NCBI GenBank assembly: GCA_002049455.2
Contig: KV918835.1
Span: forward strand, 124,001 to 188,000
Source of the DNA: Porphyra umbilicalis
Taxonomy: Eukaryota; Rhodophyta; Bangiophyceae; Bangiales; Bangiaceae
Direction: 5' to 3'
DNA: 64,000 bases
Within the stretch, counting starts at the first letter, position 1, and the number at the start of each line of letters is the position of its first letter. A program made the translations under genes and the position numbers. Below are positions 26,701 through 58,849 of the stretch, piece by piece. Below the pieces are notes generated by a model. That model ran no database searches. It had not been told where the DNA came from and was given only the letters and a program-made list of their open reading frames with translations.

Positions 26701-28751
26701 GTGACAGGGGGTAAACATGAAAATCTGCAAGGGCCCTGCTCAACCACCGAGCGGATGGCGAGAACTCACTGTATTCGCGGGACTGGGTGTCGGCGCACGG
26801 GGGGGTGGGGCACCGCCAAGCCGTGGACGGCGCGGCCGCCGACAGCGACGAGCGGCGGTCGCCCACGGCGGCAAAGAGGAAGCGCACGCCGCGACGGTAT
26901 ACAGCCCACCGACACGATCTCGTACCGCGGCCGCGGGCAGCGCCACGGGAAGCACCGCAACACGGCGCACGTCGCCGACCGATTCAGTGCGTGCGCGGTC
27001 CGGGACGAGAGAAGTCGGCGGGCGGCACCCAGCCTTCCAGCACGCCTGCCGCAGGCTGCCAACGTGGGGCGCGTGGCCGTGGCGGCTACGGCGGCGCGCC
27101 GTTACCACGCCGTCGGCCGCCGTCACCGCGCTGCCAGCCGCCGTCACCGCCGGCCGACCGCCACGACCATGGTCGCAAAACGCGCCAACAGGCGACACAT
27201 CACGTCCGCCGCACCGGCCCAAAGCAACCAGGTGGCAGCGACCGCCCGCGTCGCAACCCGCTGACCGCCGAGGCGCCCGCTAATGAGGGTGCACGTCAGG
27301 GAGCAGACCCCCGACGCTGCAACGAGAGGGGTAGCACCGTGGGTGTCAACCAGATGGGCCTCACGGGCCGAGAAAACCACCAACCGTCCATAGGGGGCGG
27401 GAGAAGAAGGGCGCCGACCGCATGCCCCAGAAGTTCAATCCAGACTGCCCCGCCGGGTGTGTCGCGGCCGTGGAGCCGCGACGCCCCGACGGGGCCGCCC
27501 ACCACGGCGGGCGGCTATGACGCCAGACGCGGCGACGGCACGGAACCGCGCAGCGACACGACGCGGTGGGGTGGCGGCGCACGCTCTACGCGGCACCCGC
27601 CGCCCGCTGCGGCGTCACGGGACACGCCGACACGGCCGCGGCGGGCGCCCGCACGGTCGGCGACACGGCGGCGGCGACGGCGGCGGCGGTGGCGGCGGCG
27701 CCGTTAGTTGCGGGGGTGGGCGCCGCGCTGCTGCGCTGGTGGCCCCGGGGCGGGGGGCACGCGCGCCGGCCTGCACGCGGACGTGCTGCTGGTCGGCAGG
27801 CTGCGCGGACGCTGCGCACGACGGGCGTGGCGCCGTGCCTCGGCCTACATGGGCGGTCCGCGGTCACGGGTGCGGGGGACCCTCTCGTTTGCCAGGCGCC
27901 TCGCGGAGGGAGCCGGGACCACTCCACGGACCACGAGTGTGGTGCTTGCTGCACGGCGCCGGCGTGGCGCCGCCGTCGGTCGACGCCCGCGCCGCCGCGC
28001 CGCACCGTCGTTCGAGCTCTGGCCAAAAAAAAAGAAAAAGCGCCATGCCCGCCGCCCTGTCAAACGACTAATGACGGACGGGTTGACCACGGGGGCGCAA
28101 AACACGTCGCGATTCCTTTTATCCGATCCCCGCAGCGACGCGCCGCGGCGTTTCCACCCCCACCCCCACTGCCCAACGCAAAAGAAAAATCGCTTGCAGT
28201 GGCCGTTGCCACGCCCGTGGCTGCCGACCTCCCCCTCCCCCCCCCGCCCCTGCCACACCAAAGGGCACGAGCACGCCCGCCACCACCGCGGCGGCAGGCA
28301 CCCACCCCCACCGACAACGGACCAGCCGCCGCCGCCCATGGGGCGACGGCGTGCGGGCGCGCCACGGCCGCCACAGGGCCGGCATGGGCGCGCCCGCGCC
28401 ACCGGCGGGCGGGGTCTGCCCCGCCCCACCCCGCCCTACGGCCGTCGGCGCCGACGCGGCACGGGCGCCAACCACCCTACGACCGTGGGGACGGCCGCCA
28501 CGGCCACGGGCCCCGTCGGCGTGGCCCGCGGCCGCCGCCGTCGCGGTGACAGCGGCGGCATCGACCCGCCAAACAACGTCGGGGGTGGGCGCGCATCGCG
28601 CCCGCCACCCGGCGGGCGTCTGGGCGGGCGACCGCGTCGCCGTCGGCAGCGGCGGAGCGCGCCGCCCAGGCGCGCCGCGTGTCGTCGAGTCCTTGGCGGT
28701 GGAAGCCACCACCTGCTCCCCCCCCGCCTCCCGCCCGCCGCGGTGACCATG
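26700..28751. other. GC-rich region, coding status unclear
   Basis: Frames on both strands are open and Arg/Ala/Gly-rich. One plus-strand stretch at about 27755-28070 (LHADVLLVGRLRGRC... ending in a lysine-rich KKKKKRHARRP) has somewhat protein-like composition, preceded in another frame by a hydrophobic stretch. I could not delimit a gene or recognise a family. Confidence 0.25.
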
Positions 28752-31700
28752 TCAAACCGGGTCCTCGCAGTGGCAATCGCCGACGGGGGCGGCCGCCCCC
28801 TGTGTGGCACACACCTTGCGGAAAAACGAGCACATGCCGACGCGGGCAGAGAGGCGCGCAGACGCTGCGGCCACGGCGGCGGGGTCGGCGTCCATGACCC
28901 CCCCGGGAGCCCCGCCCACGGGTCGTCCTCAATGGTGGCCCCGTGCCCGCCGCTGCCACCGTTGGCCACCGCCGGCGCGTCCGCCGCCGCCGCTGCCGCC
29001 GCCGCCGACGCGTGGTCGCCCGTGTCCACCGGCCCGCCGGCGCCGCCCATGCCACCGTCGCGGACGGCACCGCCGTCGGCGGCAGCGGCAGCCGCCACCG
29101 CCGCCTCCCCACGGGCGCGGGCGACCGCCGCCAAGCGGGCGGCAAGGCGAACCGACGCAGCCGCCGCCGCCGCGGGGGGGACCGTGGCGTCGTCGGCGCC
29201 GCCCGGGAGCCCCGCCCACGGGTCGTCCACGGTGGCGCGCACGCCCGCACCGTCGGCGTCGAGGGCGGCGACGGGGACCGCGGGCGTGGGGGTCGCCGGT
29301 GGTTTCAACGGCTCGCCGTGCGCGTCGGCCGCCCCTTTGGCCGACGGCGGCGACGGCGGCGACCGCAGTGGCGGCGGCGACGGCGGCGGCGGTGACGACG
29401 CGCGCGCCTTGGCCATCACCGGCGGCGTTTGATTCGGCGACGGCGACGGCGACGGGGGCACCCACCCGACCGCCCGCCACAGGCCCTGCCACAGCCCCTC
29501 GACGCGCGCCTCGTCCCACGGGGGACGCTGCGGGAGGAGCGTCCTCTGCGTCGGGCTGTCGGGCGCTGGCGTCGGCGTCGGCGTCGTGTATGGGTGGCGC
29601 CCCCCAAAAACGTCCAAAACGCACGGCGGCTCGGCGGCGGGGCCGGCCAGCCACGCGCCCACGGCGGACCGAAAGGGCGTCGGCGTCGGCGTAGCGGTGC
29701 TACAAGCGGGGGGGGGGCCCAGGGGGAGGGGGTCGGCGGCACCGGCGTCGCCCACCAGGTGGTGGCAGGGGGGGGGGGGGGGGGGGGGGGGTGACCGCGC
29801 GCCCCCGTCGCCGCCGCTGCGGCCGCCGCCGCTGCCGCCGCCGCCTCTGCGTCGGCCGCACGCTCCGCACCGTCGGCGGCCGCGGCTCGGGCGCGCCGCC
29901 CGGCAGCGTCGGTCGCCGCGGCCGCCACCGACGCGGCGCGCCAGCCGTGCGGCGCGGCTGCGACCGCGTCGCCGCCGCCACCCCGGCCGGCACCCGCCAC
30001 TGGCGGCACCCGCTCGTGTCGGGCGGCCGTCCCCGGCTCGGCCGCGCCCGCCCCCGCCGCCCCGCCGGCCGCCCACGGGGCGCCCGGCGCCTGCGGGCGC
30101 CCCTGCTCAAACGACGTGTCGTCGGCGGGTCCCCCCCACCCCCCGGCGGCGGTCATGGCAGCGTCCCACCCCCCCCACACGAGGGCCCATTGGGCCCCCA
30201 AAACGGCTCGCACGCCCGCCGTCACGGCGGCCCAGGTGCCCCACGCGGCGGCCGCGACGGCGCCCCGCACGCCCCGCACGGCCGCCGACACAGACTGCCC
30301 GCCACCCCGCCCAGCGGCCGCCCCAGCCGACGCCGCGCCGCGCACGGCCGCGCCCACCGCCGCGGCCCCACCACGCACGCGCGTCGCCACGGCGCGGCGC
30401 ACACGCCGGCGCGCCGGCATGGCGTCGCCCGCCGCCGCCACCGCCACCCCCACCGCCCGCACCGACGCCAACGCCCACCTGCCGCACCGCGCGGCGGCCA
30501 CGTCCACCGGCCGCGCCGCCGCGGCGGCCACGTCGAGCGCCACCGACGCGCCCGCGGCGGCGGCCGCCCGCCCCGCCGCCGACCGCGCGTCGCCGGCGGG
30601 GGCGGCGGCCGTCACGGCCGCCACGGAGCCCGCAACCGCCGCCGCCTTGGCGGCCGCAATGACAACGGCGGGCGCCGCCGCCGCCCGCAACCCGTCAATG
30701 GCCACAACGGCGGCGGCGGCGGCGGGCACGACCACCACCGCACGCGCGGGGGGCACCCCTTCGGACACCGCACCGGCGGCGAGGGTGGCGGCAACCACCC
30801 CGGCGCGCGCCGCTGTCGCCGCGTCCACGTGGGCGGGGGCGGCGGCGGCGAGCCGCCACGGAGCCGCAACGGCAGCCGCGGTGGTGGCCGCGGCCGCCCG
30901 TGCGGCAACGGCGGCGGCGCGTGAGGCGAGGTCCCCCACCACCGCCGCCACGTCGGCGGCCGCCCGACCTGCCCGAGCCGCCCGACGCATCGCCGCCGCC
31001 GCTGCCGTTGCCGCCGCCCGCCGGCGGGCGCGCGCCGGGCGCCGCCACCCCCCCCCGCGCACGGCGCGCCACGCGCGGGCGGCAGCGACGGCCGCCCGCC
31101 CCGGCGGCGACGCCCACCCCGCCGCCCGCACCGTCGCCGCGCGGCCGGGGCGGGAAAAGCACCACGCGGCCGCCGACCGGCGGGCGTGCGCCGCCCGCCC
31201 CCCCCCCGGCACGCACCGCCGCGGCGCGGCGGCGGCGGCAGACGCCGACGTGAGGGACCCCCACGCCCCCCACGCGGGCGCGCGGGTGGCCGCGTCCGCC
31301 TCCTCCACCCCAAAAACGTCGACGGTGCACCACGGCCGCTGCGGCGGCAGCGGCGGCGCCACCGCCCGCCAACACGCGTCGCTCACCGCACGGTTGACGG
31401 CGGCGGCGACGGCGGCAGCGGCGGCGGCGGCGGCGGCAGGCGCGGCGGCGGCCGCGGCGGCGGCCGTCGCCGCCACCGACGCGCCCGCAGACGTGAGTTC
31501 GGGGCGCCACTCGGCAGCGGCGGCGGCGGCGAGGAAGAGCGCCGCGTACGCGGCCACGGACGTGGCGGCGGTCGCGGCGGCGGCGCCGACGCGGCGGCGG
31601 CGCGCCGCCCACAACGGCGGCGGGGGGGGGGGGGGGGCGTCGCCCCCCGCACGAGGCGGTCGGCCACCCACGCGGCGGTGGCGAGGGCGGCCGCCGGCAC

Positions 31701-32000
31701 CGCCGTCGGCGGCCGCGTCACCCCGCACCCGCCGCCCCCCCCCCCCCAGCGGTGGGGGCGGCGTCGAGCCCCGCCAGCACCGCGTCTGCGGTCGCGGGGC
31801 GGCGGCGGCGGCGGGCGCCCGGCGGCGGCGGCACCGCCGCCGCCGGCGCGGGCCCCCACCCCGTCGCCGACGCTGTGTGCGCGACGACGGCGGAGCCGTC
31901 GGGGTAGGCCGACCCGGCGGCGGCCACGGCGGCGGCCAGCCCGAGCGCCGCCCCGTGCGTGATTGGGGGGGGGGCGGGGGGGGGGGGGGCGCCGCGCCGA
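28752..32000 (-). CDS. Large Ala-rich protein with two DPW repeats; frames fragmented
   Basis: Protein-like segments occur along the minus strand in several frames that switch at G/C runs. They include a hydrophobic segment at about 31530 (AAYAALFLAAAAAAEW), PWCTVDVFGVEEAD, a long Ala/Val-rich helical region, CVLDVFGGRHPYTT at about 29600, and the acidic repeats VDDPWAGLPGG (about 29203-29234) and IEDDPWAGLPGG (about 28905-28938). The C-terminus after a 7-C run (28898-28904) reads best in a frame ending TGA at 28752, with RVGMCSFFRKVCATQG. DPW is the AP-2 appendage-binding motif of epsins, but two copies are weak evidence for endocytosis. The start is unknown and may lie as far up as 33.6 kb. 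A 25-G run at 29767-29791 lies inside. I recognise no family. Confidence 0.35.
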
Positions 32001-33953
32001 GCGCGCCCGCCGGGTGCCCATGGCTGCCCCCACCCGCGGCGGTGCGGGAGGTTGGGGGGGGGGGAGGGGCGACGCGCGACGCGGCGACGCGGCCGACGAG
32101 GGAAGGGGGGGCGGCGCAGCGGGGGCCACAAGCGCCCGGGAGACGGCGCCGCAGCACCAAAAAAAAAAAAAAACAGGGGCGACGGCCACGACGGCAGGCG
32201 CCGCGCGGGCGAGCACGCGCACACCCCCAGCGGCGCGGCGGCGCCCTCGCCGCCGAGGCAACGGCCGCGCCCCGCACGTCGGCGGCGGCCGCTCGGCACG
32301 CGCGCGGGGGTGGCGGCACGCCGGCGGCGCGGCGCGGCGGCGGCGGCCGCGGCGCGCCGTCGGCCGACGCGCCCCACCCGCGGCGCGGCGCGGCGGCGGC
32401 GGCGGCGGGGCGGCGTTGGAGACGTCCCCCCGGTCGCCCGCCCGCCCGCGGCGGCCGCCCGCCGAGGCGGCCCCGCCAGCGGCCGCGGGCGCGACCGACC
32501 GACCGCCGCCGCCGCCGCCGTACCCCCGCCCGACGCGCGCGCGCCCGCGCGGCGGGGCGCGCCCCGCAACGGGCGCGCGGCGCGGCGCGGGCCCGACCGC
32601 CGCGGCCGCGGGGCGGCGGGGGAAATCATTTGCGCGGCCCCCCCCCGCCGCCGCCGTTGGGCGGCGCGCGGGCGCCTCGACGGCCGCCCGCCCGCCGCCG
32701 CCGCCGCCGTCGGTGCGTCGGCCCGCCCGCCCGCTCCGGCAGTGGTGGGGGCGCCGCGTGGCACGCGCTCCCCCCCCCCCCCCGCCCCCAGCCCCCCGCC
32801 GCCCGCCCCCCCGCGCGCGTCACGCGGCGCACCTCGCGCACGGGGCGGGGGCGGGGGCGGTCGCGCCCCCCCCCCCCCCCCCGCGCGGCAGGCCACGGCA
32901 CGGCACGAGGGGCGGCCGCCGGCGCGCGGCGGCGAGGCGGCGGTCCCCCCCCCCCCCCCCCCCGCGCCCCCGCCGCCCACGTGGTGCCGCTCGGTTGCGG
33001 CGTGACCGCCACGCTCGCGGCGCGCGCGCGGGGGGGCGGGCGGCCGCGTCGGCGGGCGGTGCGGCCGCGTTGGGCGCCACGCCGCCGCGCACCGCCGCCG
33101 CGGGCAATGGCGGGGACGGGGCGCCCGGTCGGCAGCAACGACGACCATGGGGGTGGGGGGGGGGAGGGCGGCGCTGGGGGGGAGCGGGGGGGGGGGGGGA
33201 CGGGGGGACCCGCACCCGCCGCCGCCCCGTCGGTCGGGACGGCCGGCGCACCCCCTGGTGGGGCGCGTGGCGCGCGGCCGCCACCGCCGGGAGCGCGGCG
33301 CGCACGTCCACGGGGGAGGGGGGTGCAGGGCGCCCGCGGCGCCCGCTGTCCCGCGCGGCGGTGACTCCCCCAACGCCGTGACCAGCGGCGGGCGCGACCA
33401 CGCGGCCGCCGGCAGGCGCGCGCCGCCCCCGCGGCGCGCGTCAGCACCGCCACACCACGACCGGGGTGCCCGCCCACCGCGGTGGCGCCGCCGTCGTCCA
33501 CGCGCGGTGCGCCCGTGTGCCACGGCGGTGCGCGCCACTGGACGGCGGTGGCGGGGCGGTGCGCATCGTTGCAGCGGCGGGGGGGATGGCACGTGACGGC
33601 CGTGGCGGCGGGGGGGGGGATGGAAGGGGACGGTCGTGGCGGCGTGGGGGGGGCCCCCCGCAGTTGCCAGAAAATTCAGACGAGAGGGCGGGGACGGTCG
33701 TCCCGACCCGCCGTGACGGCGACGCGCGTCAAACCCGCGTCCGGGAGGTTCAACAAGGACGGGGGGAGGGCGGTGGGCGTGGCAGACCGTCACTCCCCCA
33801 ATTGTCGAGCGAAAGCAAAGGGTCGACATCACCGAAAAGGACGCGGCCAGGCCCTCGCCGCGCACGCCATCACGACGTGACCGCCTCTCCCTCGGCACCC
33901 CCCAGTCGCCGGTCGCATTCACGGCGCTCCGCCCTGGACGCACACATGTCGGA
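32001..33953. other. Extreme GC region, no gene delimited
   Basis: Very high GC with many runs of 8 or more C or G and one 15-A run (32159-32173). Long frames are open on both strands because stops are rare at this composition. It may contain the 5' part and introns of the minus-strand gene below; no exon could be supported. Confidence 0.35.
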
Positions 33954-35668
33954 TCAATAGGGCTCCCCCTCGGGTGACATCCACCCTTCGTCCCCGGCAG
34001 CCGGTCGCCTGCTCGGCGGCGTGAGCTGCCGCGTACTCTTGCGGGCGGTCTGCTTGGTCCGCCCCCTCCCGTGTCCCCTCCCCCACCCGCCCACGTTCAC
34101 TGGCAGCGGCGATGACGCTGGGGAGACGTCGGCCACCCGCCCGTCGAGCAGTGCGCGCACCCCTTCCACCGCGGGATCAGCCACCCACCGGGCGGATCCG
34201 GCGGTGCCAGGCCCCGTGCACCACGTCGAGCGGATGCGCACCGAGGTGCCTTCCAAGTCGACGAGCGCCGCGAGGACGTGACCGTCGCGGACGCGGCTTT
34301 CGCTTGGCGGCCGGCGTTCTTCCCAGACATCGGGCTCCAACCAGTCGTTGCCGAAACGGTTGGTGAGCGTGGCGGCCGCCGCCCGCACTGCGGCAGCGGG
34401 CGTCGCGACGACCGCCACCAGGGAGGACACGTCGGGCTCGTACGGGGTACTATGGACCTCCGTCAACACCCACACGGCACCACTCGCCACCGCGCCGGCG
34501 GCCCCATCTAGGGTGCGCACTGCCACCGTGACCCGGTTGTACGTGCCCTCCCCGTCGCTCACCTTCACAAGTGTCGCCCCGTCGACGACCCGCGCGGCGG
34601 CGGTGACTACCTCACGGAAGAGGCCCCCGCCACCGTCGGCGCTGTCATCCCACCGCCACCCCGCGTGGGTGGCCATGACGGCGGTGGCACCGCGCAGGGC
34701 GGCGGCCTTGGACCCGACGACCTGCGCCACCGCCGAGCGGGGGTCGGACCACCCGTCGCATTCCGTGTAGGTGAGCACATAGACGATGGGGGCGGCGGGG
34801 GTGGCGGCCGCCGCACCCGCCCGACCATCTCCATTGGCAGCCTTGGCAGCGGTGGCGGCGGGAGGCTTGGCTTTGGCCGCCGCCGCGACCGCAGCTTTGG
34901 TGGCCTTGGCCGCCGGTTTCTTGGTGGGCGGCACGGACGCAGCGGGGGGGGCGGTGGAGGCCGCCGCTTTGGCCACCGGTGCAGCGGAGCGAGCGGGGGG
35001 GTGCGACGCCGCCGCCTTGGCCGCCTTGGTGTGCGTCTTCTTGGGCGGCTGCGCGGCGGCGTTGGCGTGCGTCTTCTTGGGCGGCTGCGCGGCGGCCTTG
35101 GCCCGGGGCTTTTTGGCCGGCGCGGGAGCTCCGGTGGTGGCCCCCTCGGCACCGGCCTTTTTGGTCGGTACCGCGGCCGCCGCTTTGGCCGCCGTTGTGG
35201 CCCCCTTCTTTGCCGGTTGTGTCGCAGACGCCTTGGCCGCCTTGGCGGGAGGCTTTGGGGCCACCGCCGTCGTCTGGTCGGGCGCCGCCGTCGGCCGCGT
35301 CGCCTTGCCCCCCCCGCCACCGCCGCCGCCGCCGCCCGCTTGGGCGGCGGTGCCCCGCTCCCCGCCACGAGCGCGATGCGCACGCGCGCAAACAGCCCCT
35401 TGGGGTCGACCACGTGGATGACCGTCCCCACATCCGGGCAGTCGACGCCTCGCCGCGCCGCCTTGTGCACGTCAAACCCCTCGGCCGACGCCCACGCGTC
35501 GCCCCACTGGCAGCGGCTGTTCATGGCGGCGGCCGCCCGGCGGACGGCGCCGACCTTGGTCGTCACCGTCCCGAGGGGCACCGCCGTCGGCGCGCCCGAC
35601 GCGTTGCCCGACTCAAACGTCAGGGCATAGTGGGGGGCGGCGTCGGGGGCGTTGCGCTTGGGCGCCAT
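33954..35668 (-). CDS. Basic protein with triplicated unknown domain, H1-like linker and histone H3 tail mimic
   Basis: Starts at the ATG at 35668 (GCC-ATG-GCG context). The N-terminal frame runs to an 8-C run (35308-35315, plus strand), after which the adjacent frame continues the protein to its stop at 33954. Three diverged copies of a domain of about 95 residues can be seen: near the N-terminus (YALTFESGNASG...VHVVDPKGLFARVRIA style), then VYVLTYTECDGW...VKVSDGEGTYNRVTVAV, then VWVLTEVHSTPY...LVDLEGTSVRIRS. I do not recognise this domain. Between copies 1 and 2 is a Lys/Ala/Pro linker with QPPKKTHANAA and QPPKKTHTKAA repeats, like histone H1 tails. Near the C-terminus, RTKQTARKST (34032-34061) is identical to residues 2-11 of mature histone H3, flanked by GRG-rich and PSRRP sequences. 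A nuclear, chromatin-associated role is inferred. Confidence 0.6.
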
Positions 35669-36134: not shown

Positions 36135-38080
36135 CACAGCACGTTGTCAAATTGGGTCACGGAGAACTTAAAATATATGCGAACCGTGAGAGGTCGTGAG
36201 AGAAATGTTTTTCCATGCAGCAAACCTCGTGACACCATCCTCGCAAATGTCGCTGTGTCGATCTCTAAAAGGCTCTGTCTGAGAAGGCTTTCTGACACCC
36301 CCAGAGACCTTCTTACCCCACCCACCTGGTCACCCCTACCCATGTGCGTACTCGTCTACTCCCAATAGCTGCGGGCACCGCCCAACCACGGACACTTGTG
36401 CTTGCCTCCTTTCCTGTCCTCTCCCACTCCTTTCTCCTGCTGGCAGGGGGGGGGGGGCGAGGGGGGCTGCACATACATGCCGAGGGGGTCGGGGAGGATG
36501 GGGGCGCAAACGGTGTCGCTAGAGTGGGACGGCTGCTGGCATTGCCGTGCAGAGCTCTGGCAGGGTCATGGGGCAGGTCCTCCTTGCGCGATCAAACGGC
36601 ACCCTTCACACCCAGTTCAAGGCAGACTTGGCGTACACAGTATGCATTCTTGCGGGCACATGGAGACCTCTGCTCGGACGCCTCACCGTCGTAGCTTGTG
36701 TCAGCCAGACTTTGTTCAGTACCTGTTGGCATGATAGTCTGCTACCAATGGGGACCCAGGATGCGCCCCCGGTCAACCGGGCAGCCAACCAGCGGGCTGG
36801 AAAACGTCAAGCCTTGTGCTTGGGGATAGCGGGGCGATTAATAATAATTCGAAGTGCTGGGCGGCGCCAATGCGCGCCCTCGGCATGTGTGCAGGTGACT
36901 GCCATGCTGCCCCCAGCCCCGCTCCTGGCTGCCGCCCAAGTGCACAAGTGCTGCCAACATCCCCGCTCGCTCTCCTGGCCGACCGCTCGGCCCACCCTCC
37001 TGGCGGACCGCCCCGCCCACCCTCTGGTCGACCGCCCCACCCACCCTCCTGGCCGGAAGCCCCGGCCACCCTCTGTTCGATCGCCCCGCCCACCCTCCTG
37101 CCGACCGCCCTCGTTCCTGTCGTATTCTTATCTGCATCCCCTCCATCCCACGCATTCTCTCCAGCTCGCACGGGGGCGGGGGGGAGTCACTCTACGACGG
37201 GCCGGACGACGTTTGCAGTCGCTGGACTAGTGGTGGTGGCGATTGGGTGGGGATCCACACTGGCGCAGTGTGGATAGTGTGACGCGCGCGGTGGGTGGGT
37301 GGTGGATGGGTTGGATGAACTGACCACGTACTTCTTTTTCGTGTTCGCTCGCCCGTCCCCCATGTATCCTTACCATGCATATGTGCGATGGCTTCCTCTT
37401 TCTTGGCTTCTGTTTCTTTGCAAACCAATGGGTGTTGCTGACATCGAAGTCGAGTAACTTGTGTCATACGCACATGCATGCGTGGTGTCCGCGAGTCGCT
37501 GACATGGTGAGCTTGCTGTTGTCCGGTGGCCTGTAGCTCTGTCAGAGTTTGCGGCTGTGTGCAGTTAGCTACATGTCTGCGTGACTCTGTAGCACACCGT
37601 GGCTTTCTTATCGATTTCGTGTCTGCTCTGCCACCCGTGCCCGCGCCGAGCAACAATAAAGCGACCGTGTCTTTCAATGCATCTTTGGCATGTATCCTCA
37701 ATGCTGGCCGGTGTCACATCCTTTCCTCCGTCAGGGTCTTGCTCCACTTCTTCCCCGAGACCTCCGAGGGATCATTGCGGCGAGTCTCGCAACATATGTC
37801 TCGAAGGATGTGAACTTCTCCTTAAAGATTGGGCAAAGAGGAGTTATGTACTCATTTTCGATCTCTCTCTGAACGCAAAGGGGTCGAGCAGCAATACGGT
37901 TCGGCCTTGTTGCAGATACCTTGGAACCTGACACGAGATTTCATCAACGCGCTGTGAGCGCAGCGGGCCCAAAACCGTCGTCAAGAGCACGTCTGCTTTT
38001 GGGTGTTTTGGGATGAACAGATAATCTGCCAACCGCCCTCGGGCTCTGTCAGGGCTGCTTTTTGCCAGAAAGGGCGCCAA
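36135..38080. other. Unassigned region with a small minisatellite
   Basis: No gene recognised on either strand. It contains G-rich tracts near 36450 and the tandem repeat at 36971-37110. Its right end (about 37957-38010) is similar, in inverted orientation, to part of the 411-bp spacer of the R1 array (about 39081-39133). Confidence 0.4.
36971..37110. repeat. Minisatellite, period about 24 bp
   Basis: About six degenerate units built on CCCACCCTCCTGGCSGACCG. Units vary by substitution and small indels. Non-coding as far as can be seen. Confidence 0.7.
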
Positions 38081-41056
38081 TTCCAGGCACGTGCGTGCAA
38101 TACCCTGGCCTTCAGGGCGGTGGCGCGCTCGGCGTCGCATCGACACCGGACACGCCGGCCGGCTCCATAGCCGCGAGCGCGCACGGGGGCACGCACAGCC
38201 ACGCTGCAATGGCGGAGAGAATTTGGGGCGGGGAAAAGGGTGCCGCCGCCGCCACCGCAGCGGCGGCGGCCCGCCGGCGTCGCGCGACGCCCACAGGAGG
38301 GGCCGTCACTTCGCCGCGCAGCGCACCTGCGCAAGGCGGGCAGGGCGGCCGACACGGCGCACGGGCGGGCGGGTGGGACTGATCGCCGCGCGATGGGGCG
38401 CCTCCAACCGCGCCGCTAGGTGGCGTCAGCAACCGCCGACGCGCCGCCGCAACAGAAGACGGCGCGCAGGCACGATCATCCGCGGGTCATCGTGGGCGCG
38501 TCGAACCCCGGAAGTCGCTGCGCGCGGTCGCCGCGCGCAACTCGGGGCGGTGGTGGTGGGCAGAGGGGCAGACGCCGTCCCGGCCCTGTGACCCTTGTGG
38601 CAGGAGAGTCCTTCTCAGCCACGTAACTCTATTCGCTTTTTAGTGTCATCGCGACCCTTCCAACGCTGACACGCCCTCAAATCCCTGAGGGCACGAATGC
38701 AGACTGCCACCTCTGAAACCGAGATCAAGTCCCGTTATCTAAGTATATGTGTGCATCACTACACTTTGAGAGCACCCTGTCCTGAAGGCCAGGGAAAACC
38801 ATCTGTTCGCCGGGATAGGTGCATCTCCACTCGTAAAAAGAGAGACACAGCATAATACTTATACACTTCACCCTTCCAGAAAGAGAGAGAGACGGAGAAG
38901 CATCTATGGCCCTGCCAGCAGGCGCAATGTGTGGAGTGAGGAACGATTCCTGTTCTCGCAAACACAAATATGCAAGGACCTCGCATGGAATGGCCTCTGA
39001 GAGCCTGTCAAGGGGGGTCGATCTGTTTTTTGCACAGGAATTCTGTTTCATCAAACATGAACACGGGCCTCCAAGAGGCTCAAAACAGGCAAAAACAGAC
39101 GCGCTTTTGACGACAGTTCTAGACCCGCTGCGCAGGGATCTGACGCAGGGATGGAAAAAATCGCGAGTTTTTACATCTCGGATAGATTAATCTATAGATT
39201 AACATAATAGTTCCAGGCACGTGCGTGCAATACCCTGGCCTTCAGGGCGGTGGCGCGCTCGGCGTCGCATCGACTCCGGACACGCCGGCCGGCTCCATAG
39301 CCGCGAGCGCGCACGGGGGCACGTACAGCCACGCTGCAATGACGGAGAGAATGTGGGGCGGGGAAAAGGGTGCCGCCGCCGCCACCGCAGCGGCGGCGGC
39401 CCGCCGGCGTCGCGCGACGCCCACAGGAGGGGCCGTCACTTCGCCGCGCAGCGCACCTGCGCAAGGCGGGCAGGGCGGCCGACACGGCGCACGGGCGGGC
39501 GGGTGGGACTGATCGCCGCGCGATGGGGCGCCTCCAACCGCGCCGCTAGGTGGCGTCAGCAACCGCCGACGCGCCGCCGCAACAGAAGACGGCGCGCAGG
39601 CACGATCATCCGCGGGTCATCGTGGGCGCGTCGAACCCCGGAAGTCGCTGCGCGCGGTCGCCGCGCGCAACTCGGGGCGGTGGTGGTGGGCAGAGGGGCA
39701 GACGCCGTCCCGGCCCTGTGACCCTTGTGGCAGGAGAGTCCTTCTCAGCCACGTAACTCTATTCGCTTTTTAGTGTCATCGCGACCCTTCCAACGCTGAC
39801 ACGCCCTCAAATCCCTGAGGGCACGAATGCAGACTGCCACCTCTGAAACCGAGATCAAGTCCCGTTATCTAAGTATATGTGTGCATCACTACACTTTGAG
39901 AGCACCCTGTCCTGAAGGCCAGGGAAAACCATCTGTTCGCCGGGATAGGTGCATCTCCACTCGTAAAAAGAGCGACACAGCATAATACTTATACACTTCA
40001 CCCTTCCAGAAAGAGAGAGAGACGGAGAAGCATCTATGGCCCTGCTAGCAGGCGCAATGTGTGGAGTGAGGAACGATTCCTGTTCTCGCAAACACAAATA
40101 TGCAAGGACCTCGCATGGAATGGCCTCTGAGAGCCTGTCAAGGGGGGTCGATCTGTTTTTTGCACAGGAATTCTGTTTCATCAAACATGAACACGGGCCT
40201 CCAAGAGGCTCAAAACAGGCAAAAACAGACGCGCTTTTGACGACAGTTCTAGACCCGCTGCGCAGGGATCTGACGCAGGGATGGAAAAAATCGCGAGTTT
40301 TTACATCTCGGATAGATTAATCTATAGATTATCATAATAGTTCCAGGCACGTGCGTGCAATACCCTGGCCTTCAGGGCGGTGGCGCGCTCGGCGTCGCAT
40401 CGACACCGGACACGCCGGCCGGCTCCATAGCCGCGAGCGCGCACGGGGGCACGTACAGCCACGCTGCAATGACGGAGAGAATGTGGGGCGGGGAAAAGGG
40501 TGCCGCCGCCGCCACCGCAGCGGCGGCGGCCCGCCGGCGTCGCGCGACGCCCACAGGAGGGGCCGTCACTTCGCCGCGCAGCGCACCTGCGCAAGGCGGG
40601 CAGGGCGGCCGACACGGCGCACGGGCGGGCGGGTGGGACTGATCGCCGCGCGATGGGGCGCCTCCAACCGCGCCGCTAGGTGGCGTCAGCAACCGCCGAC
40701 GCGCCGCCGCAACAGAAGACGGCGCGCAGGCACGATCATCCGCGGGTCATCGTGGGCGCGTCGAACCCCGGAAGTCGCTGCGCGCGGTCGCCGCGCGCAA
40801 CTCGGGGCGGTGGTGGTGGGCAGAGGGGCAGACGCCGTCCCGGCCCTGTGACCCTTGTGGCAGGAGAGTCCTTCTCAGCCACGTAACTCTATTCGCTTTT
40901 TAGTGTCATCGCGACCCTTCCAACGCTGACACGCCCTCAAATCCCTGAGGGCACGAATGCAGACTGCCACCTCTGAAACCGAGATCAAGTCCCGTTATCT
41001 AAGTATATGTGTGCATCACTACACTTTGAGAGCACCCTGTCCTGAAGGCCAGGGAA
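38081..41056 (-). repeat. R1 tandem array, 1130-bp period
   Basis: Three R1 copies in reverse orientation at 38081-38796, 39211-39926 and 40341-41056, separated by two 414-bp spacers (38797-39210 and 39927-40340). Units and spacers are nearly identical; only scattered single-base differences were seen. The array is therefore recent. The spacer is lower in GC and ends in or near a TTAATCTATAGATTAA palindrome. Confidence 0.88.
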
Positions 41057-41547
41057 ATATCGATTTTCCAATTAATTAATAGTTTTATTGCTGCCTGTTA
41101 ATTCGACTGCGGGCTGTGTCTGACCATCCATGTCGCCGCCGCTTCGCTGGTCCGAGGGTGTTCGCTTGCCTCGATCGGTGGTGCACTTGTTACACTTCAC
41201 ACTGAGTGGCGCGTCGGTAATCCCAAGGTGAAAGAGAGACGAGCGGAGAGGCCGAGGTGGTCGCCGATGTCCGTCCAGTGCGAGGTGAGGGTGAGTGAGG
41301 AGCCGCCACTGTAGCCGAGGCCGCCCCCGCTGCCGCTCTCCACCGTTGTGACCACCCCGCCTCCGCACCGTCAGCCACCAAAACGCGTGTCGCACCACAG
41401 GCTGCGGCCGAGACCCGAGGCGACAGCCTTCTAGCATTAAGTTAAAAAACACATAAAAAACGGGAGAACGGCAACTGATTACTCTATAGACTAAATATGT
41501 ATTAAATCGATTTAATGTAATGCATGCATTTTATTGGTGCCAACCCT
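41057..41547. other. Unique segment between R1 array and hAT element
   Basis: 490 bp, AT-rich at both ends and without a recognised gene. Its last 8 bases before 41556 are the left target duplication of the hAT element. Confidence 0.4.
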
Positions 41548-43390: not shown

Positions 43391-46300
43391 TTAGCACGCC
43401 GGGTCGGGCTCAAGCGCGCCCGCCGCCGCGCCCAAGTCGGGCCCGACACCCGCTGCGTCACGGAAGGCCTTGAACGCCGGCCCCGGCAGCGCCTTGGTGA
43501 GCCCGTCCGCGGGCATCTCAGCGCTCGGCAGGAAGTAAAAGGTCACGTGGCCGCGCGCCACGTAATCGCGCACCATGTGGTACGCGACGTCCACGTGCTT
43601 GGTGCGTCCCGTTGCCTCGGGGTTGTTGACGAGCGCCAGGCACGCCTGGTTGTCTTCCCCCATGGGAACGGCACCGCCGTCGACGCCAAGCGCCGATAAA
43701 TGCTTTCGTAGCCAAAGGGCCTCCTTGGTCGCCATCGCGGCGGCCACGTACTCGGCCTCAGCCGTCGACGTTGCCACCGTCGACTGGCGCTTGCTCGCCC
43801 ACGAGACCGGCCCGCCGTTGAGGGTGAAGATAAAACCCGTCGTCGACCGACGAGCGTCAACGTCGCCCGCCCAGTCCGCGTCGACGTACCCTTGGAGAGG
43901 CTTGTAGGTGCCGTACGCGACCCCGAGGCGCGAGGCCCCGCGAAGGTACCGAAGCACCCCCTTGGCCGCGCGCATGTGGTCCTCCTCGGGGCAGGCCATG
44001 TAGCGCGACAGCACGCCCACGGCAAAGGCAATGTCCGGCCTCGTCGTTGAAGAGAGATAGAGCAGGGAGCCGACAAGTTCGGCATATCGGTTGCCGTCGG
44101 GCAAGAGGTTCTCCCCCGTCTTGGCCAGCTTGGCCCCCGACACCATTGGCGTCTTGTTGGGCGTGGAGTTGGACATTCCAAACGCCTCAAGGAGTGCGAT
44201 AACATGCCCCGGGTTGCTCAGGGTGAGCGTCTTGGCCGCCCGGTCTCGCATTACCTTCATGCCGATGAAGTCCTTGACCTCCCCCATGTCGCGCACGTCG
44301 AACGTTGCCGACACCGAGTTCTTTACCGCTTGAACCCCGTCGAGGCTCTTGCCCGCAACGATTAGATCGTCCACGTAGACGAGGATGTAAACCAGCCCGT
44401 GCACCGGGTGGCTCCATGTGTAGAGGCACGGGTCCACCTTGGACCGGACTGCCCCCATAGCCTTGAGCTCTTTGTCGAGCTTGATGCCCCACAGGCGCCC
44501 GGCCTGCTTTGTCCCATACAGAGCTAGGTTGAGACGGAAGACATCATGTGCCCCCCCGGGCTCGGTGCCGTCCGGAAGGTTGATGTACATCTCCTTGTCC
44601 ATTTTGGCGTTGAGGAATGCCGTCTTGACGTCCACGTGGTGAACCTCCCAGTCCTTGGCCGCGGCCACCGCGAAGAGTGCGCGCGTTGTTGTCGAGCTGG
44701 GCACTGGCGCCCATGTCTCGTCAAAATCACGCCCCGGCACTTGGTTGAAGCCTTGCGCGACCAGGCGCGCCTTGTACCTCGTCACGTTGCCTTCCGAATC
44801 GCGCTTGATGTCGTACACGTACCGAGTCTTGACGGCCTTGCGCTTGTTGTTGTTCTTGGTCTTGGACCAGGTACCAAGCTTCTTGTGCGCCACGTACTCT
44901 TCCTTCTCTGCCGCCTTCCATAGCGGCCAGTCCGAGCGTGCACGCGCCTCCTTCGCGTTGGTCGGCGGCTTGCTCAGGTCCCAGGCAGACTTAGCGTCAC
45001 CAAATGGCCCCGCTGCCACGTACGCCTTCGGGTTGCTCTCCCACCAGGTAACCTTTGGTGCCGGCTTGCGCTTGGACCGCCGGGGTGCTTGCGCCCCGTC
45101 GTCATCGCTCTCCGTTGTGGATTCAGGCAGAACTTGGTGCCCTTCTTGAGCCGCCGCGTCCTCGTTGTCGTCATCATCATCGCCGTCTTCCGCGTCATGG
45201 ACGGCCTCCTTGTCCGGCGCGTCGTCGCTCTCTGAAGACTGCTGCGGAGCATGCTCGTCCCCGCTGGGGACTTCCGCGTCCAGCATGTTCATCGCACCGT
45301 CCTCCTTGTCACCATCCGTCCACGCCGTCAGGCGAGGACTGGCGCTTGAACCAGAAACAGACGTCTTGTTCATTGTCTTGCTTGGGATCTCCTCCATGAG
45401 CACGTCTCGGCGCTCGAAGATCTTGTTTGAATCATCCTCGAGGATGCGGTAGGCCTTGCCACCAACGGTGTAGCCAACAAAACGGCCAACATCTGTCCTT
45501 GACTCCAGCTTGCGCTGCTGCTGCTTGGGCTTGAGAGCCCAGGCCCGGCTCCCCCAGACGCGAAACCCCTTCACGTCAGGGCGTCGCCCCGTGAGCGCCT
45601 CAAGGGGCGTCACATTTTGCCCGGCCTTGGGGGACCGGTTTAGCACGTGGATGACCGAGGAGAGCGCCTCAGCCCACAGCTCCTCTTCCGCACCGGCGTC
45701 CAGCAGTGCCGCGCGAACGCGCTCCATGATGTAGCGGTTGGCACGCTCCGCCTTGCCGTTCTGCTGCGATGAATACGGCGCCGTCTTCTCTGACGTGATG
45801 CCCTTGTTGTCATACCACGCCTTGAGGTCGTGGCTGACGTACTCCTTTGCGCCATCGTGGCGCACTCGCTTCACTTTGAGCCCGGTGAGGGTCTCAAGCT
45901 GCGTAATGCGGGCCTTGATGACGTCTGGTACCATCCCCTTCGTCTTGATGGGCGTCGCCGTGATGAAGCCAGTAGAGTCCTCCATCAGCGTCATGAAGTA
46001 TACTGAACCGCCCAACGACTCCGTCAAGGGCCCATCGACGTCGGTGTGAACCAACTCGCACTTGGTGCTCGTTGTAGTGGAGCGATGATGCGGGGAACGG
46101 GCCATCTTGCCGTCAACACACGGGACACACACCGTGCCAAGGATGCGCTTGGCGTCCGCCACCGAACCCGGAATCCCGTCGACCATCCCAACCACTAGCT
46201 TGAGGTTCTCGAAGCCCAAGTGGTTGAACCTGCGGTGCCACAGCTCCGCCTCGCCGTCCATGCGTGTTGAGGCGGCGCTTGCCGACGCCTTGACCGGCGT

Positions 46301-47446
46301 CACCTTAAGTACGTAGTTCTCGGATTCGTTGACCGAACCGATGACAGACGCGTTGCTCAACACCCCGCTTGAGAGTACCGCCTCTCCATCGCTGAGGATG
46401 TAGCAGGCGTCTCCGACAAACACCACCGCTCCGCCGCGGCGGTCAACCGCACGCACAGACAACAGGTTGTCCGTCAGGTCTGGCACGAGCATGGCCTCAC
46501 CGAGGACCATTCGTACCTTGGTGTTGCCCGCCCCCACGTCCATGGAGACGTATCCGTGCCCCTTAATGGACACCTTGTGACCGTCAGCCAGAGTGACCTT
46601 GGCCCCGCTTCCCGACGTCTTGACGGTGAAGCCCTTGTCCCCGGCGGCCATATGGTTGGTCGCGCCGGAGTCCAGCACCCAGGTCGACATCCCACTGGTG
46701 CTCTCGGGAGTCTTGTGCTCCCCGTCCTGGCCTGCCGACGCGGCGTAGGCCAATGCAGCACGGGGAGGTGCACCGCCGCCCCCGCCACCATCCCGACGCC
46801 CGCCGCTTGGCTTCTTGTTGCCCTTGGCGTCGTCGGCCTTCTTCTTGAGGCATTCGCGCTTCATATGCCCTCTCTTGTCGCAGTAGTAGCACACGACCGC
46901 CTTCTTGTCCCACGGCTTCTTGGTCGCCGATGCCGCAAACGCTTGCGACTTGACGCCAGTCGACGACGACGACCGCCCTCGGCTGGCGCGCTGCTCCACC
47001 GTGAGCAGCTTGGCGCTCACTTCGGCGAGGTTGCGCTTCCCGTCCATGTTCTCCAGGACGGTCTTGATCATGTCGTACTCTGCTGGAAGACCCGACAGGA
47101 TCTGCAGCACGAGTGTGTTCTCGTCCACCTGGTTGCCCAGCATGGCGAGTTCTTGGCGGAGGCCCTTGGCGCGCGACGTGTACTTGATGATGTTCTCGTC
47201 GCCGTCCTTCTTGAGGTTGCTCAGCTCGTGCATGAGCTGCAGCAGCCGTGCGTTGTCGCGCGCCTCAAAGATGTCCTTGAGCGCGTCCCACGCGTCCTTG
47301 GCCGTACTGACCGCCGTCACCGAATGGAGATGAACCGGCTTGACCGACATCTGGATGGTCGCCAACGCCGACTCGTTCATGATGTCCCACGCGTCCGCCA
47401 CCAAGTTGCCCTTGGAGTCGCTCCCGGACGCGGGGCGGTCGGTCAC
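43391..47446 (-). CDS. Copia Gag-Pol coding region, unit 1
   Basis: An open frame of about 1350 codons covers most of the polyprotein. Visible: a UBN2-type Gag region, zinc knuckle CYYCDKRGHMKREC (about residues 186-199), protease DSGA (about 258), the integrase HHCC region (HRRFNHLG...CVPC) and catalytic core with HTDVDG and QQNGKAERANR, an acidic linker, reverse transcriptase with VDVKTAFLNA and YVDDL, and RNase H with VDADWAGD, STAEAEY and KHVDVAYH. These are parts of a retrotransposon fossil; treated as such, the unit looks nearly whole with about one break. Confidence 0.9.
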   Translation of the reverse strand: MTDRPASGSDSKGNLVADAWDIMNESALATIQMSVKPVHLHSVTAVSTAKDAWDALKDIFEARDNARLLQLMHELSNLKKDGDENIIKYTSRAKGLRQELAMLGNQVDENTLVLQILSGLPAEYDMIKTVLENMDGKRNLAEVSAKLLTVEQRASRGRSSSSTGVKSQAFAASATKKPWDKKAVVCYYCDKRGHMKRECLKKKADDAKGNKKPSGGRRDGGGGGGAPPRAALAYAASAGQDGEHKTPESTSGMSTWVLDSGATNHMAAGDKGFTVKTSGSGAKVTLADGHKVSIKGHGYVSMDVGAGNTKVRMVLGEAMLVPDLTDNLLSVRAVDRRGGAVVFVGDACYILSDGEAVLSSGVLSNASVIGSVNESENYVLKVTPVKASASAASTRMDGEAELWHRRFNHLGFENLKLVVGMVDGIPGSVADAKRILGTVCVPCVDGKMARSPHHRSTTTSTKCELVHTDVDGPLTESLGGSVYFMTLMEDSTGFITATPIKTKGMVPDVIKARITQLETLTGLKVKRVRHDGAKEYVSHDLKAWYDNKGITSEKTAPYSSQQNGKAERANRYIMERVRAALLDAGAEEELWAEALSSVIHVLNRSPKAGQNVTPLEALTGRRPDVKGFRVWGSRAWALKPKQQQRKLESRTDVGRFVGYTVGGKAYRILEDDSNKIFERRDVLMEEIPSKTMNKTSVSGSSASPRLTAWTDGDKEDGAMNMLDAEVPSGDEHAPQQSSESDDAPDKEAVHDAEDGDDDDDNEDAAAQEGHQVLPESTTESDDDGAQAPRRSKRKPAPKVTWWESNPKAYVAAGPFGDAKSAWDLSKPPTNAKEARARSDWPLWKAAEKEEYVAHKKLGTWSKTKNNNKRKAVKTRYVYDIKRDSEGNVTRYKARLVAQGFNQVPGRDFDETWAPVPSSTTTRALFAVAAAKDWEVHHVDVKTAFLNAKMDKEMYINLPDGTEPGGAHDVFRLNLALYGTKQAGRLWGIKLDKELKAMGAVRSKVDPCLYTWSHPVHGLVYILVYVDDLIVAGKSLDGVQAVKNSVSATFDVRDMGEVKDFIGMKVMRDRAAKTLTLSNPGHVIALLEAFGMSNSTPNKTPMVSGAKLAKTGENLLPDGNRYAELVGSLLYLSSTTRPDIAFAVGVLSRYMACPEEDHMRAAKGVLRYLRGASRLGVAYGTYKPLQGYVDADWAGDVDARRSTTGFIFTLNGGPVSWASKRQSTVATSTAEAEYVAAAMATKEALWLRKHLSALGVDGGAVPMGEDNQACLALVNNPEATGRTKHVDVAYHMVRDYVARGHVTFYFLPSAEMPADGLTKALPGPAFKAFRDAAGVGPDLGAAAGALEPDPAC

Positions 47447-47705
47447 GACCGCCGACCAGACCTTCTCCTAGATGAGCTGTGCACGGCAGTACACGGCCCA
47501 GACCTTGTAATCGTCGTCCAGCTGCGCAAAGCGAGGGCCACCGTAGCGCCCGTACTCCGACATGACGACAACAACCGCGCCCCGAGGCGCGACACTGACG
47601 ACGTGGGAGGCTAAGCCCGCCCGCCCGACGCCGGAACACACAGCAGCCCAACGAGCGCCGTCCCGCAAACGATAGAGCGGAAGACGACGATCACCACCAG
47701 CGACA

Positions 47706-47719
47706 CTGGGCCCATAACC
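47706..47719 (-). other. Primer binding site, Copia unit 1
   Basis: GGTTATGGGCCCAG on the minus strand, adjacent to the 5' LTR. It is complementary to the anticodon stem-loop of eukaryotic initiator tRNA-Met rather than to a tRNA 3' end. Confidence 0.85.
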
Positions 47720-48086
47720 TGTGAAGTCGATGATGTTGAGTGGGTGCGTTGTTTTACTAGGCACTGCGTTCCCAGGCCTGCGAAGGCGTGCCTGATATCC
47801 CCCAGGCCGCCTCAGCCGCAGGGCCTTCCCAGGCACCCCCAATGGCGCGGCCGACAAGGCCCGCACGGCACCTCCCAGGGCAGCTCCCGCACCTCCGGAG
47901 GGCGCCCACAGCCTCACACTCCAGGCGCCGCTCCCCACACAAATCTCCCCCGGAGCTCAACCCCTAATGGGTTCCCCGCTGAAAGATCTATAATCAAGTA
48001 CATGCAGTGTCACCACACAAATACAAAGACTTACGACTGACGCAAGGGCCAATTGTTCCTGGGGGACTGCGGAAGTACACTTCACA
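47720..48086 (-). repeat. Copia LTR 2 (shared by units 1 and 2)
   Basis: 367 bp, serving as 5' LTR of unit 1 and 3' LTR of unit 2. Confidence 0.93.
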
Positions 48087-48094
48087 CTCCCCCC
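48087..48094 (-). other. Polypurine tract, Copia unit 2
   Basis: Same GGGGGGAG tract next to LTR 2. Confidence 0.75.
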
Positions 48095-48955
48095 AGTACC
48101 CCAGGGATAATTCCTCCCACCCGGTCAAATTCCCGTCATCGAAAGTCCATGGAAGGCTCTCCGTGGACGATCTGACCGAGGGGTCTAAAGCCCTTTAGAC
48201 CCCTTTCATGCGGAGGGGTCTAAAGCCCTTTAGCCCCATGTCCAGAGGTCGGTTTTTCAACCGACCTCCGATGGGGCCAAAGCAGACCCGCGAGGATGCC
48301 AAAGGCACCTCCGGGCCTCCCTGATGCCCGTAGGACCCCATCCGGTCCATCGGGCACCACCCCCACGTGACCGTTCTGGCCGGGGGTCTAAAGCCCTTTA
48401 GCCCCATGTCGAGAAGTCGGTTTTTCAACCGACCTCCGATGGGGCCAAAACAGGCCCGCGAGGATGCCAGAGGCATCTCCGGGCCTCCCTGGTACCCGTA
48501 GGACCCCATCCGGTCCATCGGGCACCACCCCCACAATGACCGTTCTCACGGCGGGGCTAAAGCCCTTTAGACCCCTTCCAAATCTCGGTTTTTCAACCGA
48601 CCTCGGAAAGGGCCCAGGAAGGACCGGGCAGGTGCCCTGACCACGCCCGACCCGTCCGGGTGCCAGTACGACCACATCCGGCCCGTCGGGCACCACCGGA
48701 AGAGGGCCCAAAGCACTTTAGCCCCATCGCCACGTGTTGCACCGACACCACGTGTTACAACGGTACCACGTGTTGCAACGGTACCACGTGTTGCAACAGC
48801 GCCACGTGTTGCAACAGCGCCACGTGTCGGTCCCGGGACGATCTTCCAGGCCGCGACATCCGGGCCCGAATTCTTGAAATCGGCGCCCGGGCCCGCCCAG
48901 CCGGATGCGCTAAAGCCCTTTAGCGCCCCAAAGCCGGGCAGAGTGACGACGTGCG

Positions 48956-51900
48956 TTAGCACGCCGGGTCGGGCTCAAGCGCGCCCGCCGCCGCGCCCAA
49001 GTCGGGCCCGACACCCGCTGCGTCACGGAAGGCCTTGAACGCCGGCCCCGGCAGCGCCTTGGTGAGCCCGTCCGCGGGCATCTCAGCGCTCGGCAGGAAG
49101 TAAAAGGTCACGTGGCCGCGCGCCACGTAATCGCGCACCATGTGGTACGCGACGTCCACGTGCTTGGTGCGTCCCGTTGCCTCGGGGTTGTTGATGAGCG
49201 CCAGGCACGCCTGGTTGTCTTCCCCCATGGGAACGGCACCGCCGTCGACGCCAAGCGCCGATAAATGCTTTCGTAGCCAAAGGGCCTCCTTGGTCGCCAT
49301 CGCGGCGGCCACGTACTCGGCCTCAGCCGTCGACGTTGCCACCGTCGACTGGCGCTTGCTCGCCCACGAGACCGGCCCGCCGTTGAGGGTGAAGATAAAA
49401 CCCGTCGTCGACCGACGAGCGTCAACGTCGCCCGCCCAGTCCGCGTCGACGTACCCTTGGAGAGGCTTGTAGGTGCCGTACGCGACCCCGAGGCGCGAGG
49501 CCCCGCGAAGGTACCGAAGCACCCCCTTGGCCGCGCGCATGTGGTCCTCCTCGGGGCAGGCCATGTAGCGCGACAGCACGCCCACGGCAAAGGCAATGTC
49601 CGGCCTCGTCGTTGAAGAGAGATAGAGCAGGGAGCCGACAAGTTCGGCATATCGGTTGCCGTCGGGCAAGAGGTTCTCCCCCGTCTTGGCCAGCTTGGCC
49701 CCCGACACCATTGGCGTCTTGTTGGGCGTGGAGTTGGACATTCCAAACGCCTCAAGGAGTGCGATAACATGCCCCGGGTTGCTCAGGGTGAGCGTCTTGG
49801 CCGCCCGGTCTCGCATTACCTTCATGCCGATGAAGTCCTTGACCTCCCCCATGTCGCGCACGTCGAACGTTGCCGACACCGAGTTCTTTACCGCTTGAAC
49901 CCCGTCGAGGCTCTTGCCCGCAACGATTAGATCGTCCACGTAGACGAGGATGTAAACCAGCCCGTGCACCGGGTGGCTCCATGTGTAGAGGCACGGGTCC
50001 ACCTTGGACCGGACTGCCCCCATAGCCTTGAGCTCTTTGTCGAGCTTGATGCCCCACAGGCGCCCGGCCTGCTTTGTCCCATACAGAGCTAGGTTGAGAC
50101 GGAAGACATCATGTGCCCCCCCGGGCTCGGTGCCGTCCGGAAGGTTGATGTACATCTCCTTGTCCATTTTGGCGTTGAGGAATGCCGTCTTGACGTCCAC
50201 GTGGTGAACCTCCCAGTCCTTGGCCGCGGCCACCGCGAAGAGTGCGCGCGTTGTTGTCGAGCTGGGCACTGGCGCCCATGTCTCGTCAAAATCACGCCCC
50301 GGCACTTGGTTGAAGCCTTGCGCGACCAGGCGCGCCTTGTACCTCGTCACGTTGCCTTCCGAATCGCGCTTGATGTCGTACACGTACCGAGTCTTGACGG
50401 CCTTGCGCTTGTTGTTGTTCTTGGTCTTGGACCAGGTACCAAGCTTCTTGTGCGCCACGTACTCTTCCTTCTCTGCCGCCTTCCATAGCGGCCAGTCCGA
50501 GCGTGCACGCGCCTCCTTCGCGTTGGTCGGCGGCTTGCTCAGGTCCCAGGCAGACTTAGCGTCACCAAATGGCCCCGCTGCCACGTACGCCTTCGGGTTG
50601 CTCTCCCACCAGGTAACCTTTGGTGCCGGCTTGCGCTTGGACCGCCGGGGTGCTTGCGCCCCGTCGTCATCGCTCTCCGTTGTGGATTCAGGCAGAACTT
50701 GGTGCCCTTCTTGAGCCGCCGCGTCCTCGTTGTCGTCATCATCATCGCCGTCTTCCGCGTCATGGACGGCCTCCTTGTCCGGCGCGTCGTCGCTCTCTGA
50801 AGACTGCTGCGGAGCATGCTCGTCCCCGCTGGGGACTTCCGCGTCCAGCATGTTCATCGCACCGTCCTCCTTGTCACCATCCGTCCACGCCGTCAGGCGA
50901 GGACTGGCGCTTGAACCAGAAACAGACGTCTTGTTCATTGTCTTGCTTGGGATCTCCTCCATGAGCACGTCTCGGCGCTCGAAGATCTTGTTTGAATCAT
51001 CCTCGAGGATGCGGTAGGCCTTGCCACCAACGGTGTAGCCAACAAAACGGCCAACATCTGTCCTTGACTCCAGCTTGCGCTGCTGCTGCTTGGGCTTGAG
51101 AGCCCAGGCCCGGCTCCCCCAGACGCGAAACCCCTTCACGTCAGGGCGTCGCCCCGTGAGCGCCTCAAGGGGCGTCACATTTTGCCCGGCCTTGGGGGAC
51201 CGGTTTAGCACGTGGATGACCGAGGAGAGCGCCTCAGCCCACAGCTCCTCTTCCGCACCGGCGTCCAGCAGTGCCGCGCGAACGCGCTCCATGATGTAGC
51301 GGTTGGCACGCTCCGCCTTGCCGTTCTGCTGCGATGAATACGGCGCCGTCTTCTCTGACGTGATGCCCTTGTTGTCATACCACGCCTTGAGGTCGTGGCT
51401 GACGTACTCCTTTGCGCCATCGTGGCGCACTCGCTTCACTTTGAGCCCGGTGAGGGTCTCAAGCTGCGTAATGCGGGCCTTGATGACGTCTGGTACCATC
51501 CCCTTCGTCTTGATGGGCGTCGCCGTGATGAAGCCAGTAGAGTCCTCCATCAGCGTCATGAAGTATACTGAACCGCCCAACGACTCCGTCAAGGGCCCAT
51601 CGACGTCGGTGTGAACCAACTCGCACTTGGTGCTCGTTGTAGTGGAGCGATGATGCGGGGAACGGGCCATCTTGCCGTCAACACACGGGACACACACCGT
51701 GCCAAGGATGCGCTTGGCGTCCGCCACCGAACCCGGAATCCCGTCGACCATCCCAACCACTAGCTTGAGGTTCTCGAAGCCCAAGTGGTTGAACCTGCGG
51801 TGCCACAGCTCCGCCTCGCCGTCCATGCGTGTTGAGGCGGCGCTTGCCGACGCCTTGACCGGCGTCACCTTAAGTACGTAGTTCTCGGATTCGTTGACCG

Positions 51901-53011: not shown

Positions 53012-53270
53012 GACCGCCGACCAGACCTTCTCCTAGATGAGCTGTGCACGGCAGTACACGGCCCAGACCTTGTAATCGTCGTCCAGCTGCGCAAAGCGAG
53101 GGCCACCGTAGCGCCCGTACTCCGACATGACGACAACAACCGCGCCCCGAGGCGCGACACTGACGACGTGGGAGGCTAAGCCCGCCCGCCCGACGCCGGA
53201 ACACACAGCAGCCCAACGAGCGCCGTCCCGCAAACGATAGAGCGGAAGACGACGATCACCACCAGCGACA

Positions 53271-53284
53271 CTGGGCCCATAACC
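53271..53284 (-). other. Primer binding site, Copia unit 2
   Basis: Same 14-base match to the initiator tRNA-Met anticodon region as in unit 1. Confidence 0.85.
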
Positions 53285-53651: not shown

Positions 53652-53659
53652 CTCCCCCC
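53652..53659 (-). other. Polypurine tract, Copia unit 3
   Basis: Same GGGGGGAG tract next to LTR 3. Confidence 0.75.
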
Positions 53660-58700: not shown

Positions 58701-58835
58701 ACAACCGCGCCCCGAGGCGCGACACTGACGACGTGGGAGGCTAAGCCCGCCCGCCCGACGCCGGAACACACAGCAGCCCAACGAGCGCCGTCCCGCAAAC
58801 GATAGAGCGGAAGACGACGATCACCACCAGCGACA

Positions 58836-58849
58836 CTGGGCCCATAACC
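58836..58849 (-). other. Primer binding site, Copia unit 3
   Basis: Same 14-base initiator tRNA-Met anticodon-region match, next to LTR 4. Confidence 0.85.

Follow-up and report, generated by a model that had tools for sequence, protein, structure and literature searches.

Does a run of ten residues identical to the histone H3 tail make a red-algal protein a histone mimic? The question comes from a minus-strand gene, BU14_0144s0026, in the nuclear DNA of Porphyra umbilicalis (G000:C75:124001-188000). Here 'the window' refers to this whole stretch of 64,000 nucleotides. At 34032-34061 on the minus strand the gene reads CGGACCAAGCAGACCGCCCGCAAGAGTACG, which translates as RTKQTARKST, residues 2-11 of mature histone H3. 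The sole relative found, P0002 (JGI), shares 84% identity with it across 521 aligned residues and was used in placing some of the following features.

33954..35668, minus strand: whole gene BU14_0144s0026, with a frame change near 35320 (translation, protein search, P0002 alignment)
35375..35635, minus strand: repeat domain 1, sharing its frame with the ATG at 35668; the second half lies within the GenBank intron and is coding in P0002 (internal repeat, P0002 alignment)
34791..35306, minus strand: H1-like linker rich in Lys, Ala and Pro, containing two PPKKTH units (translation, composition)
34500..34790, minus strand: repeat domain 2 (internal repeat)
34218..34478, minus strand: repeat domain 3 (internal repeat)
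34062..34091, minus strand: Gly/Arg-rich stretch (GGWGRGHGRG) before the motif (translation)
34032..34061, minus strand: RTKQTARKST, identical to mature H3 residues 2-11 (translation; single pattern match in the window; RTKQTARKS kept in P0002)
33954..34031, minus strand: the 25 residues after the motif and the stop (RQLTPPSRRPAAGDEGWMSPEGEPY), the first part diverged in P0002 and PAAGDEGWMSPEG kept

The ten residues are as the initial annotation had described them, K4 and K9-S10 included, but they are not the C-terminus of the protein that it took them for, because 25 further residues, RQLTPPSRRPAAGDEGWMSPEGEPY, precede the stop at 33954-33956. The residue preceding R2 is G, and the free A1 of H3 is absent. 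A degenerate 24-base pattern for the first eight residues of the motif has a single match in the window and none in any of 100 shuffles.

The carrier protein is built from three degenerate repeats of ~90 aa, an H1-like linker rich in K, A and P, and a basic tail. The linker sits between repeats 1 and 2. After repeat 3 come the Gly/Arg-rich stretch and the motif, and the protein closes with a conserved segment, GDEGWMSPEG. In P0002, the repeat copies match one another at pairwise E values of 6e-12, 2e-5 and 2e-7, computed with the composition correction and low-complexity filter off. The linker composition over 172 residues (A 41%, K 15%, P 15%) fits a linker histone H1-type tail, and the H1-like PKKTH repeats pointed out earlier are indeed there, as the two PPKKTH units. 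The absence of a histone fold, also noted earlier, agrees with Pfam finding no family on BU14_0144s0026 or P0002. While the linker resembles the H1 tail, the carrier differs from H1 in that no winged-helix globular domain of linker histone H1 is found by Pfam on either protein.

Searches of Pfam, NCBIfam and PDB give no convincing relative of the carrier, and the genome contains no convincing paralogue (best other match, E 0.03), the carrier being single-copy. Permuted_GreAB-C was considered as the fold of the repeats and rejected, its E value of 0.046 in only two of the six repeat copies being too weak. When the C-terminal 436-aa ORF, the C-terminal 273 aa of P0002 and P0002 domain 1 are used as queries, P0001 and P0002 are the only proteins returned, the searches with the 436-aa and 273-aa queries having scored the 8000 candidates that share most words. 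IMG/VR yields three pattern matches and no relative. A PDB search with the 42-residue tail does not list histone H3 itself at E 10; such searches are therefore unsuited to a census of ten-residue mimics.

The frame of the motif could be an artefact of the gene model and not translated. The ORF around the motif is 100% identical to BU14_0144s0026 in the protein search. The first domain, starting with the ATG at 35668, and the remainder are in different frames, joining near a G-rich run at ~35320, and the GenBank protein joins two exons across a 113-base GT-AG intron at 35358-35470 on the minus strand. This change of frame and the intron that the database model requires could favor an artefact, as could the last 43 codons, whose GC by codon position (0.63, 0.72, 0.81) does not follow the repeat-domain pattern. 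In the repeat 1 stretch and in the stretch of repeats 2 and 3, on the other hand, codon position 2 has the lowest GC and position 3 the highest. P0002 codes through the intron stretch in one frame, and most of the part skipped there corresponds to the second half of one repeat unit; the intron was probably introduced by gene modelling where the frame changes at the G-rich run. Because P0002 codes continuously through this stretch, reaching the same C-terminus in the same frame at 84% identity, the motif frame is identical under both gene models, and an untranslated motif is highly improbable. A piece of an H3 gene could also have been captured in a fusion with an unrelated protein. H3 copies are abundant in the genome (77 matches), some of them on transposons, and the RQL after the motif faintly resembles the RKQL of H3. 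However, there is no clear match beyond the ten residues, and the motif DNA agrees with the closest of three H3 genes tested at 25 of 30 bases, where random synonymous codons agree at 23.9 on average (P 0.39). The Ser codon of the motif is AGT, whereas it is TCG in the three H3 genes tested. With codons no nearer to H3 than random synonyms and a Ser of AGT rather than TCN, nothing points to an H3 gene as the source, and the codon simulation leaves such a descent unsupported. A 36-residue tail query matched only itself, although the same search missed the H3 genes and is thus insensitive to ten residues. Capture appears very unlikely, and the codons lead us to favor convergence as the putative origin.

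The basic low-complexity tail may also spell H3 2-11 by coincidence, without engaging any reader or writer of H3. Its richness in R, K, G and T raises the chance of such a match. With independent residues at the six-frame frequencies of the window, the exact 10-mer is expected 8e-5 times in the six frames of the 84-Mb genome, which speaks against coincidence, and any exact 10-mer from H3 residues 1-40 is expected 0.014 times per genome, again with independent residues. With the protein's own composition, the 10-mer is expected 1e-9 times in BU14_0144s0026. This model of independent residues is crude, and its figures are per genome and take no account of the number of windows screened upstream, which leaves more room for coincidence. 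The initial annotation's statement that ten identical residues are very unlikely by chance accords with the 8e-5 per genome under that model, and we grade a chance match as unlikely, though possible. Conservation bears on both sides. P0002 retains RTKQTARKS, nine of the ten motif residues, T11 being replaced by S, within an identical run of 14 residues (GHGRGRTKQTARKS), and six of the ten residues after S10 are changed; that the divergence starts right after S10 is a point against coincidence. However, identity over 14 residues is ordinary between these two proteins, which share eleven other runs of equal or greater length, up to 26, and motif conservation, seen in one close relative, is not above the average of the protein. 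The proposed check of whether orthologues keep the motif is thus answered in part, by nine of ten residues kept in a single available relative in which the run length is ordinary. Coincidence is a serious possibility, a little short of probable.

The other reading that we take seriously, tentatively and at about the same probability as coincidence, is that this single-copy H1-like protein bears its tail as a convergent, chromatin-bound, internal H3-like linear motif of the K9 type. What stands of the earlier H3-tail mimic claim is the identity itself, which is real, improbable at random and carried by a basic, H1-like protein that is not a histone; what counts against it is that the motif is internal and lacks A1. 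The carrier would sit on chromatin via its basic linker, with a presumably disordered tail, whose motif would have arisen by convergence and not from an H3 gene. Many K4 readers require A1, and recognition of the K9 site depends on QTARKS. Being internal and without A1, the motif should be a poor K4 ligand, which argues against many K4 readers; K4 recognition requiring a free N-terminal alanine is unlikely for this tail. QTARKS, on the other hand, is complete in the motif. The tail would most plausibly act as an internal H3-tail-like linear motif of this K9 type, which SET-domain methyltransferases or H3-tail kinases might modify, and the modified tail might recruit a chromodomain-type reader or compete locally with H3. 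As a function of such a mimic, a K9-type (QTARKS) substrate or ligand is plausible.

Possible writers and readers exist in the genome, as SET matches and chromodomains are both present. Among 85 SET matches, one locus (L041) is SET1-like by eye, and seven of the eight loci with frames read share a CXC-SET pattern with an E(z)-like look. At L069, Pfam places SET above its cut-off but preSET_CXC (23.2 vs 23.3 bits) and Ezh2_MCSS (16.4 vs 27) below theirs, so that the E(z) assignment is tentative. Chromodomains occur in one CHD-like protein (L032), and six of the seven chromodomain loci with frames read look by eye like Ty3-type retroelements. HP1 chromoshadow, SRA and Pre-SET have no match in this genome; since none of 14 control genomes matched either, leaving no positive control, their absence is not established. 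As a separate observation, the E(z)-like CXC-SET genes appear amplified (L069:2896-6744 and many SET matches; seven of eight alike, with open frames of 267-1292 aa). None of the first 52 SET matches has a scored Harbinger transposase or a copy of H3 nearby.

The H3-like motifs of G9a and GLP are short, in contrast to the ten identical residues R2-T11 of the carrier. Red algae are a deep branch, and to our knowledge H3-tail signalling is little studied in them. G9a and GLP are described as automethylating H3-like motifs, which then bind HP1 (PMC9768651). The carrier, a putative chromatin protein, is like them (PMC9768651) in that an H3-like stretch containing a potentially methylatable lysine sits within a protein other than a histone, and unlike them in that Pfam recognises no methyltransferase domain and that modification or HP1 binding of its motif is a prediction. 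The ADNP homeodomain likewise has ARKS in a host chromatin protein; the account in PMC3022755 gives ARKS a minor contribution to heterochromatin association and the methylated peptide no HP1 binding. Unlike the carrier, in which Pfam recognises no homeodomain, ADNP has a PGVLL motif and a homeodomain as well. Histone-tail sequences in non-histone proteins are also presented as mimicry for the ARSK tail of influenza NS1 and the KacXXR motif of hepatitis delta antigen (PMC6972770), which are viral with partners reported, whereas the carrier is an algal host gene with no reported partner. A functional motif would make the carrier a candidate histone mimic from a red alga, with a perfect H3-tail match that is unusually long for a non-histone protein of a host; literature searches found no earlier histone mimic in a red alga, judged by title among the matches listed. 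If coincidental, ten identical residues would still call for orthologues before mimicry is claimed.

A stronger observation than the tail motif comes from the same genome, in which PIF/Harbinger-type transposons carry H3 with both K9 and K27 changed to R. With tail positions aligned by eye, the 28 H3 places inspected comprise four with canonical tails (one of them, L004, frame-broken after the tail), 15 with R at both K9 and K27, four more divergent (L018, L023-L025) and five without an H3 tail in the fetched stretch. On C139 (L066, C139:68001-78000; with L070 and L071), one of these H3 genes with R at K9 and K27 has a Plant_tran/DDE_Tnp_4 transposase (E 2e-60) on one side and, on the other, an opposite-strand ORF of 552 aa. 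The element, C139:67067-81195, has perfect 21-base terminal inverted repeats, the outer base lying within TAA on both sides, which is the PIF/Harbinger signature. On C8 (L067), a transposase (E 3e-59) is beside the H3 gene, and the ORF on the far side beyond H3 matches NAM-associated (29.1 vs a cut-off of 27.7) and, weakly, Myb/SANT-like (18.1 vs 27). The copy on C276 (L068) has the same inverted repeat at its transposase-side end, with adjacent bases TCA rather than TAA; its other end was not found in the fetched stretch.

The association extends to the H3 matches at large. At 60-72% identity, at least 18 of 55 lie within 8 kb of a transposase match, at 3.4-5.3 kb, against an expected 2.9%, and at 70-72% identity at least 13 of 20 do so; these counts are lower bounds, with 150 of the 624 transposase candidates scored. 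None of the four matches at ≥93% identity (one a fragment) lies within 8 kb of a scored transposase. Comparison of the best-kept H3 groups, L006 vs L010, gives a dN of 0.0067 and a dS of 0.126, with few changes in all, and the degenerate copies L017 and L020 give ratios of ~0.40-0.92. Among the titles listed by literature searches, which do not reach everything in print, none concerns a transposon carrying such an H3.

Combined with the tail motif, these elements would allow a broader reading, which we consider unlikely. The internal H3 R2-T11 copy of the host H1-like protein would join K9-type signalling as a substrate, tether or decoy, and the host and the Harbinger-type transposons (H3 K9R/K27R) would both manipulate the H3 tail code, with E(z)-like genes apparently amplified.

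In the rest of the window, Pfam on 17 other ORFs scores helicase, fatty-acid desaturase and PET191 families to the left and a Copia-type retroelement to the right, all above cut-offs, with no further family above cut-off among those ORFs. Rfam at gathering scores has no match in the window, and bacterial promoter and terminator scans are not meaningful here. At 43394-59086 on the minus strand, three Copia-type polyprotein frames recur exactly every 5565 bases, in the manner of a tandem repeat; two are open over 1358 aa and the third is split by a stop, the Pfam scan covering the first. A dispersed repeat of ~720 bases is found at 38080-41058, 10655-11365 and 60938-63125, with three copies ~1130 bases apart, and is 81-85% identical to one beside the SET gene in L041. 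At 28001-34000, GC is 79-86% and both strands carry very long overlapping low-complexity frames; the H3 genes on transposons are flanked by GC-rich blocks of a similar kind.
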